From positions 186,001-250,000 of the forward strand of contig NZ_ATUK01000013.1 of the NCBI RefSeq assembly GCF_000420165.1: a stretch of 64,000 bases of DNA, read 5' to 3'. The notes beneath the pieces are model-generated. The model was given only the letters and a program-made list of their open reading frames with translations, made no database searches and was not told the DNA's origin. Position 1 is the stretch's first letter, and every line of letters begins with the position of its first letter. The stretch comes from Thioalkalivibrio sp. AKL19. Its GTDB lineage: Bacteria > Pseudomonadota > Gammaproteobacteria > Ectothiorhodospirales > Ectothiorhodospiraceae. Shown piece after piece: positions 59,340 to 60,532 of this stretch. A program made the position numbers and the translations under genes.

Positions 59340-59507
59340 TCCCTCTCCCATTGCTCGCCCTCTTCCGAAAACCGCGGCGGCCCGATTGTCGCGTGAATCA
59401 TGGCCGCATGACCAGCGAGACACGGGTCAGCCCGATCGGCGTGAGCAGAAATTACCCCAAGCCCGCCCATCGGCCCCGGGGTTCCGGAAAAGGGTTCGCG
59501 TGAATCC

Positions 59508-59693
59508 TCAGGCGTAATCGTCAATCAAGCCGCGGCGCTTGCCGCGTTCTTCCTTGCGCGGGGGGCGCTGCTGGGTCGGACGCACGGCGGGCCGGAACAC
59601 CGGATCGCGGTCATGGTCATCGCTCAGCTGGCGACCCGGAACGGCTGTGTGAACCGGACGCACGGTCCGGTCCGGCTGCAGCTCATCGACCAT
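59508..59693 (-). CDS. Small basic protein of the flagellar cluster, function unknown
   Basis: This 61-residue protein (MVDELQPDRTVRPVHTAVPG..., ending KRRGLIDDYA) is rich in Arg, Pro and Asp, with no membrane segment. I do not recognise a family. GGGAGG seven bases before the ATG is a strong site and supports a real gene. The MITE-like element begins 17 bases upstream of the start codon, separating it from cheW. The 168 bases down to the DUF2802 gene hold nothing clear. Confidence 0.6.
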   Translation of the reverse strand: MVDELQPDRTVRPVHTAVPGRQLSDDHDRDPVFRPAVRPTQQRPPRKEERGKRRGLIDDYA

Positions 59694-59710
59694 GGCTCAC
59701 CTCCCGGTTA

Positions 59711-59996
59711 GGGAAACACTGATCACGGTACACACTCGCGCTCGAGTCGCTTTTGCGTAAGAACATGGCGCGGTGACTGCCGTGCAGTGCATTCTCTGCA
59801 CAAGGGCGCCGCAACGCCGTTCCCGCGCCCGTTTTTTCAACAAAGGGGCGACCGATCCCCTTCGGGGTTGGCACCCCAGGTTCCCCGATCCTGCGTTGCC
59901 CCGCTTGCGGGTAGAACCACTACCCGCCGCACGACGCGCCTTGTCTCGGACAACCTGGGGTGCCAACGCGAGTGTGTACAGTAATCAGTGCTTCCC
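59711..59996. mobile_element. MITE-like element with 30-bp terminal inverted repeats and TA flanks
   Basis: The 286-bp element starts GGGAAACACTGAT... (59711-59740) and ends with the inverted copy (59967-59996), 27 of 30 bases matching. TA stands on both sides (59709-59710 and 59997-59998), as a 2-bp target duplication would leave. Inside is a second perfect 16-bp inverted repeat (GTTGGCACCCCAGGTT, 59868-59883; complement at 59952-59967) touching the right terminal repeat, plus small hairpins such as CCCCTTCGGGG. No transposase is encoded. It is a non-autonomous element; its parent IS must be elsewhere. TA duplication suggests IS630/Tc1-like transposition, but other families are possible. Confidence 0.8.
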
Positions 59997-60046
59997 TACC
60001 GCCTCATGGTCCTTGTCCTTCTCGAGTGTAGACCCCGCACGAGTAA

Positions 60047-60532
60047 TTACAGTTCGCGCAACTGGGCCCACTCCTCGTCCGACAGCAGCTTGTTCAGGTC
60101 CACGAGGATCGTCAGGCCCTCCTCGGTGCTGGTCACGCCCTGAATGAAACGACTGCTGTCGTCATTGCCCACCTCCGGGGCCGGTTCGACCGCGTCCGGG
60201 GCGATCCGCACGACCTCCGAGACCGAATCGACCAGGATCCCGACGTTCTGGTTGTCCACGTCGATGATCACGATGCGCGAGGCCTCGTCCGATTCCCGAT
60301 CGTCCAGCCCCATGCGCCGCCGGGCATCGATGACCGTGACCACGTTGCCCCGCAGGTTGATGATGCCCAGGATGTAATCCGGAACACCGGGCACCGGCGC
60401 AATCTCGGTGACCTTGAGGACTTCCTGGACCTGCAGCACATCGATCGCGTAGGTCTCCTCCGCGAGGCTGAAGGTCACATACGGAGCGGTGTCGGCCTTG
60501 GCCATGGCTTCTACGTCTTGTGCGCTGCTCAT
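60047..60532 (-). CDS. cheW: Chemotaxis coupling protein CheW
   Basis: This 161-residue adaptor links chemoreceptors to the kinase CheA. The CheW fold is clear: YVTFSLAEETYAIDVLQVQEVL, GVPDYILGIINLRGNVVTVID, RIVIIDVDNQNVGILVDSVSEV. The core NLRG motif is intact. It follows parP by 100 bases; the MITE-like element lies just past its 3' end. Gene order cheB-motC-motD-parC-parP-cheW is that of polar-flagellated gammaproteobacteria. Confidence 0.95.
   Translation of the reverse strand: MSSAQDVEAMAKADTAPYVTFSLAEETYAIDVLQVQEVLKVTEIAPVPGVPDYILGIINLRGNVVTVIDARRRMGLDDRESDEASRIVIIDVDNQNVGILVDSVSEVVRIAPDAVEPAPEVGNDDSSRFIQGVTSTEEGLTILVDLNKLLSDEEWAQLREL

Follow-up and report, generated by a model that had tools for sequence, protein, structure and literature searches.

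What is the palindromic element that separates a CheW-domain gene from a short open reading frame (ORF) in Thioalkalivibrio sp. AKL19, what moves it, and does the direction in which it lies matter to the host? The window that we analysed is a stretch of 64,000 nucleotides (contig NZ_ATUK01000013.1, positions 186,001 to 250,000). The original prediction was that the window holds a miniature inverted-repeat element (MITE) of 286 bp, mobilised in trans, with 30-bp terminal repeats, TA on both sides, an internal perfect 16-bp inverted repeat touching the right end and no transposase. The element is a MITE, and that identification was correct. The reading that we favour, with a probability of roughly 0.86, is that of a non-autonomous MITE moved in trans by an IS5-family transposase, with selection on its orientation and copying from one arm to the other.

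Structure of the window copy

The core of the window copy begins with GGAAAC and ends with GCTTCC (Table 1). The terminal repeats are present as an outer inverted repeat (59709-59740 / 59967-59998) of 32 nt that is 91% complementary, and the internal repeat by the right end extends over 22 nt (91%), including the perfect 16-bp run GTTGGCACCCCAGGTT, which adjoins the right outer arm. In other copies the apical hairpin has the form GCCGGTAG/CTACCGGC. A consensus fold built from 123 non-redundant copies has the same double inverted-repeat design. A list of ORFs of at least 80 aa contains no transposase gene within the element and no ORF longer than 124 aa that overlaps it. The window copy folds strongly, with z values of -10.3 on the plus and -11.3 on the minus strand against 200 dinucleotide shuffles, none of which was as good. 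The earlier suggestion of a large cruciform or RNA structure may hold: the fold is strong, but covariation lies mainly in the terminal repeats, and the pairing exceptions lend no support to selection on a minus-strand RNA (see below). An Rfam search of positions 59500-60200 gave no match up to E 1, and neither did a Pfam search with the 61-aa ORF downstream, whose ribosome-binding-like GGGAGGTGAG directly adjoins the element.

Table 1. The MITE of the window, its parts and its neighbours (positions within the window)
Feature	Position	Strand	Basis or remark
61-aa ORF, downstream neighbour	59508..59693	-	conserved in four sister strains
Left 4-bp target-type flank TTAG	59708..59711		4-bp length deduced chiefly from the partner IS
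MITE core, 284 bp	59712..59995		repeat family; empty site in three sister genomes
Left terminal inverted repeat	59712..59740	+	two partner IS copies have identical ends over the outer 14-16 bp
Inner inverted repeat, left arm	59867..59888		helix present in 123-copy consensus
Apical hairpin GCGGGTAG-AACCA-CTACCCGC	59907..59927		fold; copy comparison
Inner inverted repeat, right arm	59946..59967		helix present in 123-copy consensus
Right terminal inverted repeat	59967..59995	-	inverted-repeat search; IS-end comparison
Right 4-bp target-type flank CTAC	59996..59999		read beside core
CheW-domain gene, upstream neighbour, reads towards element	60047..60532	-	Pfam CheW 1.3e-41

Distribution and mobility of the family

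The original prediction would have been refuted had there been no second copy and no related genome with an uninterrupted site; further copies were found in large number, and related genomes do have the uninterrupted site. In its own genome the window copy matches at least 40 distinct places, most of them near full length, and a query from the second subfamily described below adds three. A search for the end motif with up to two mismatches returned 169 matches, versus 5 for a reversed control pattern, a number that points to some 80 elements or fragments in the genome. The complete genome G029 likewise holds at least 40 places. Family matches occur in 16 of 58 related genomes (the own genome included), all of one genus; across the order, 16 of 30 Thioalkalivibrio genomes were positive and none of the 17 other genomes, six of the 14 negative genomes of the genus being at most 80% complete.

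The full-length copies (n = 137) measure 265-313 bp and fall into length classes of about 265, 280, 295 and 310 bp, which result from optional modules of about 15 bp that vary even between some orthologous copies. This spacing had raised the possibility of a conserved ORF, which was ruled out: no frame is open across the copies, and even the most open of the six lacks stops in no more than 35 of the 137. The family shows the short length (below about 500 bp), the terminal inverted repeats and the multiple dispersed copies of bacterial MITEs. Short derivatives with the same ends also occur, of 90 bp (L148:598-687), 160 bp (L153:673-832), 162 bp (L158:355-516) and 225 bp (L159:282-506); the shortest has little beyond the arms.

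The site of the window copy is empty in three genomes; in strains ALMg11 and ALE31, for example, the CheW gene is followed by the 61-aa ORF without the element. When the left flanks of 35 copies were followed into the close relative G009, 24 sites were recovered with both flanks, 20 of them unoccupied and four with the element, which in one case has an internal deletion. With two further genomes added, orthologous loci could be traced for 26 of 36 copies, and for 25 of these the element was missing from the locus in one or more genomes (including a few with a short alternative sequence). Since orthologous sites are largely unoccupied, the family has moved within the time span of these species.

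Target sequence and partner insertion sequence

Outside the GGAAAC...GTTTCC ends lie YTAR-like or CTAG-like 4-mers. Those of the window copy are unequal and have TA in common, so that the predicted TA on both sides is indeed there. As the unit of the target, TA is better replaced by four base pairs. Among 141 copies the flanking 4-mers are identical in 49 and TA is found on both sides in 66; the identical pairs are CTAG in 34 cases and TTAA in 11, both palindromes (45 together), with four others seen once each. The 4-bp target rests mainly on the partner insertion sequence (IS) introduced below: among eight IS copies with both flanks, five have identical 4-mers (TTAA, TAAG, CTAG, GTAG, CTAG) and three have different ones. 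Because the five include the non-palindromic GTAG and TAAG, which are the best evidence, we take the target to be 4 bp, with TA as its centre. CTAG/TTAA-like 4-bp targets are also the consensus for the IS5 family.

Empty sites complicate this picture. All three genomes with the empty site have CTTG where the filled site of the window copy has TTAG and CTAC. At 17 sites of the own genome (G000) compared with G002, G004 and G009, empty-site and filled 4-mers agree at 40 of 68 positions on the left and 43 of 68 on the right, whereas identity over the flanks is mostly 80 to 98%. This shortfall is unexpected if insertion simply duplicates 4 bp; either the target mutates fast or its bases are changed in the course of insertion or later. 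One-sided changes of CTAG to CCAG or CTGG are common at the CTAGGG junction of CTAG-flanked copies; very-short-patch repair would give such changes.

Which enzyme could move the MITE? The own genome carries an IS of 1192 bp (L147) with an open transposase frame of 342 aa, which scores 306 bits against the NCBIfam model NF033581 for the IS5 family (cut-off 140). An IS5-family transposase thus lies between matching ends: compared with the end of subfamily-1 MITEs, end A of this IS agrees at 17 of 18 positions and end B at 14 of 18. Across five IS copies, 15-17 of the 18 positions of end A agree with subfamily 1, and in four copies 16 of the 18 positions of end B agree with subfamily 2; end B of L147 is ambiguous between the subfamilies (14 against 13). 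The MITE therefore has its ends in common with an autonomous element. Further full-length copies of the IS are found in G012 (2), G021, G022 and G029 (3 of equal score), and a fragment in G007. A full IS is present in five of 16 MITE-positive and in none of 14 MITE-negative genomes of the genus (Fisher p 0.045); in the other 11 positive genomes it was not found at the thresholds used, and the 14 negative genomes gave no match at E 1e-30 or 1e-20. Together with the many copies and the uninterrupted sites, an IS with matching ends in the same genome supports the predicted mobilisation in trans. The IS5-family IS is the likely source of the mobilising enzyme, and it is its transposase that would move this MITE.

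The MITE does not appear to be an internal deletion of the partner IS, for its interior had no match below E 0.05 to four IS copies. An IS630/Tc1 origin, which the TA had brought to mind, finds no DDE_3 (PF13358) match in the own genome at E 0.001, and a 2-bp TA duplication of that type disagrees with the IS flanks, which indicate 4 bp. Two arrangements of IS and MITE were also observed. A second IS copy in the own genome (L175, G000:C1:20262-21140), broken by two in-frame stops and 67% identical, adjoins a MITE-like end, and in G029 a partner IS lies directly beside a subfamily-2-like MITE with a CTAG flank common to both (L409:1038-2551).

Subfamilies and matched arms

The 137 full-length copies divide into 120 of subfamily 1, nine of subfamily 2 and eight of neither. 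Subfamily 1 carries a version of IS end A at both termini, and subfamily 2 carries IS end B likewise. Within a copy the two arms differ on average at 1.37 of 28 positions, as against 3.95 when arms are re-paired between copies (lowest value in 2000 shuffles, 3.41) and 1.36 against 2.93 for subfamily 1 alone, in shuffles that ignore any descent of the copies from a few symmetrical ancestors. In the 30-bp outer stem of the 123 non-redundant copies, both sides have changed in 228 of 3690 cells; the inner helices show little covariation (104 of 4546 cells in the largest).

Arm matching is not fast at resident copies, since 21 comparisons of orthologs, some of which have a site in common, contain 17 one-sided and two two-sided arm changes. 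At one site followed through four genomes, the arm states T/T, G/T and G/G are all present. Orthologous copies also vary in blocks and in length while the ends stay nearly constant, which looks like exchange between copies. Parts of PMC8604942 and PMC8794818 describe template switching as a process that homogenises the arms of inverted repeats and fixes hairpin pairing; it may act in the same manner on the arms of this MITE.

Orientation between genes

A simple codon-usage gene caller, trained on the window, placed a gene to either side for 133 of the 141 copies; these copies were picked by similarity to the window copy and are therefore not a random sample outside the own genome. With the element taken as plus, the strands of the flanking genes are '--' in 73 cases, '++' in 23, '-+' in 22 and '+-' in 15. 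After removal of known orthologs and weak calls, '--' exceeds '++' by 48 to 13 (p 8e-6), and in tight gaps, with both genes within 100 bases, by 39 to 7 (p 2e-6). The excess thus consists of genes that read the minus strand of the element. A preference for co-directional gaps as such was rejected: 96 of 133 copies lie in them, versus 243 of 340 sampled neighbouring genes of G029, so that the bias is one of orientation alone. For ten flank proteins, from five sites that are all of the '--' type, Pfam bore out both strand and domain; the gene pairs look like hisB-hisH, flgB-flgC, accC-prmA, mlaD-mlaC (a shortened copy) and uvrC-pgsA, the gene names being read from domains and sequences.

Several explanations were considered and set aside. 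In G029, where twenty 20-kb samples place the sign changes of the GC skew near 0 and 1.37 Mb, replication direction gave no significant bias, with the minus strand leading in 24 of 40 copies scored. For 30 copies of this genome, 12 of them also among the 141, '--' to '++' is 18 to 8 (p 0.08, not significant alone), and the minus strand leads at 12 of the '--' sites and the plus strand at six. A terminator on the plus strand is disfavoured, as copies with the T-run module (22:6) and without it (26:7) are equally biased, and a simple terminator scan of the window copy came out empty. An internal promoter was rejected too: the pattern scan of the window copy found none, and the best scores of the family consensus on both strands, computed with hexamer weights, lie below the mean of simple shuffles. 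Exceptions to pairing, read on the plus strand, number 105 G-T and 44 A-C in the outer stem, or 56 and 41 once one column pair is left out, and 86 and 77 at the common inner pairs, figures that give no support to a selected minus-strand RNA.

Discussion

We propose that an IS5_4-type transposase would recognise the outer ~17 bp of both MITE ends and insert the MITE into CTAG/TTAA-like 4-bp targets. Between co-directional genes, the plus orientation would do more damage to downstream expression, either through polarity or by offering a target for mRNA cleavage, and this orientation would then be lost by selection, leaving survivors mostly with the minus strand in the mRNA. The arms would be matched by template switching in the quasi-palindrome, within the lineages that found new copies; arm-to-arm copying best explains the matched arms. 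The simplest account of the bias is that the MITE survives best in the orientation least harmful to downstream expression; the bias itself hints that orientation is of consequence for the host. The background frequency of co-directional gaps and the three of eight IS copies without identical 4-mers make us slightly less sure of the favoured reading as a whole, and also of the two readings, discussed next, in which the RNA or the hairpin is of use to the host.

Could the minus-strand RNA instead be a selected intercistronic module, for instance one that stabilises or processes operon mRNA, so that the element is partly domesticated? The bias in tight co-directional gaps, the sites in apparent core operons and the strong fold would all suit such a role. 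So would conservation: of 24 overlapping pairs of orthologs, chosen by similarity to the window copy and compared with gaps omitted, 19 have the element conserved at least as well as its flanks, and at four common sites found through their flanks, changes number 44 in 1014 positions of the element against 138 in 1987 of the flanks. However, the 20 of 24 sites that are empty in G009 mean that single copies are dispensable, co-directional gaps are occupied at background frequency, pairing exceptions lack the excess expected from a minus-strand RNA, Rfam has no match, and the interior changes length among orthologous copies; we therefore consider domestication unlikely. Slightly less probable still is a related reading in which the family is kept in operons one way round, its minus-strand RNA forming a non-polar hairpin that tunes or insulates the neighbours, with ends made symmetrical again from a single IS end as one hairpin arm is copied into the other; were it true, each IS end could found its own MITE subfamily. 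The bias may also arise at the moment of insertion, coupled to replication or transcription, and not by later selection. Transcription-coupled targeting is compatible with all the data here, but replichores in the one complete genome show no significant bias, the '--' sites of G029 include both minus-leading and plus-leading cases, and a transposase would hardly distinguish orientations when the ends are near-identical and the common targets palindromic. On balance we think an origin at insertion rather improbable.

For the matched arms, selection on an RNA or cruciform structure is the competing explanation to copying between arms. The doubly changed cells of the outer stem include transversion pairs with few intermediates, and the preponderance of one-sided changes among orthologs is not what one-step copying at resident copies predicts. 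Yet each subfamily has a different IS end at both termini, a pattern reached more easily by replacement of an end than by base-by-base compensation, the inner helices covary little, and there is no minus-strand asymmetry. We consider structural selection doubtful. An ordinary dispersed palindromic repeat (REP or BIME), or an immobile remnant, is by comparison scarcely credible. Passages of PMC3733652 report REP families in this genus, and they concern REPs and not this element; our literature search for Thioalkalivibrio returned such REPs and no published element of this kind. Size, long terminal repeats, the empty sites of relatives and ends in common with an IS5-family transposon all speak against a REP.

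How does the Thioalkalivibrio MITE compare with known systems? Chunjie, a MITE of 178-235 bp in Geobacter uraniireducens, has many intergenic copies, one of them in a phosphate uptake operon, according to the passages on it in PMC10969869. That review states that this copy disrupts the operon, and the title of a work cited there speaks of Chunjie without disturbance of operon structure. By description, the two are alike as small MITEs with many intergenic copies, one of Chunjie's within an operon; they differ in host, and neither an orientation bias nor end-symmetrised subfamilies appear in those passages of PMC10969869. The partner IS L147 and the MITE are alike in their outer ends and in the CTAG/TTAA-like 4-bp target, and the MITE differs from it in lacking a transposase and in its unmatched interior. 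Correia/NEMIS and BOX/RUP MITEs are non-coding, have terminal inverted repeats, are thought to be mobilised in trans and give folded transcripts. The Thioalkalivibrio MITE is set apart from them, again by description, in that its arm pairs covary copy by copy. ERIC is 127 bp long. In the parts of PMC3049150 that deal with it, ERIC is a structured intergenic repeat in operon mRNA whose effect on the transcript depends on orientation, with a putative RNase E site. It resembles our MITE, as far as those parts describe it, in being a structured intergenic repeat within operons, and is shorter.

If the proposed model holds, dozens of copies per genome in both orientations amount to a natural experiment on a large hairpin in an operon, to which the unoccupied orthologous sites of sister strains add a comparison for why direction matters. 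The two subfamilies, each with its own IS end at both termini, would allow copying from arm to arm to be tested in a transposon. At one apparent single locus the element lies in opposite directions, in L178 (G001) and L213 (G005) versus L261 (G004), the flanks of the first two being about 70-74% identical to those of the third; this could reflect either an inversion between the arms or an independent insertion.
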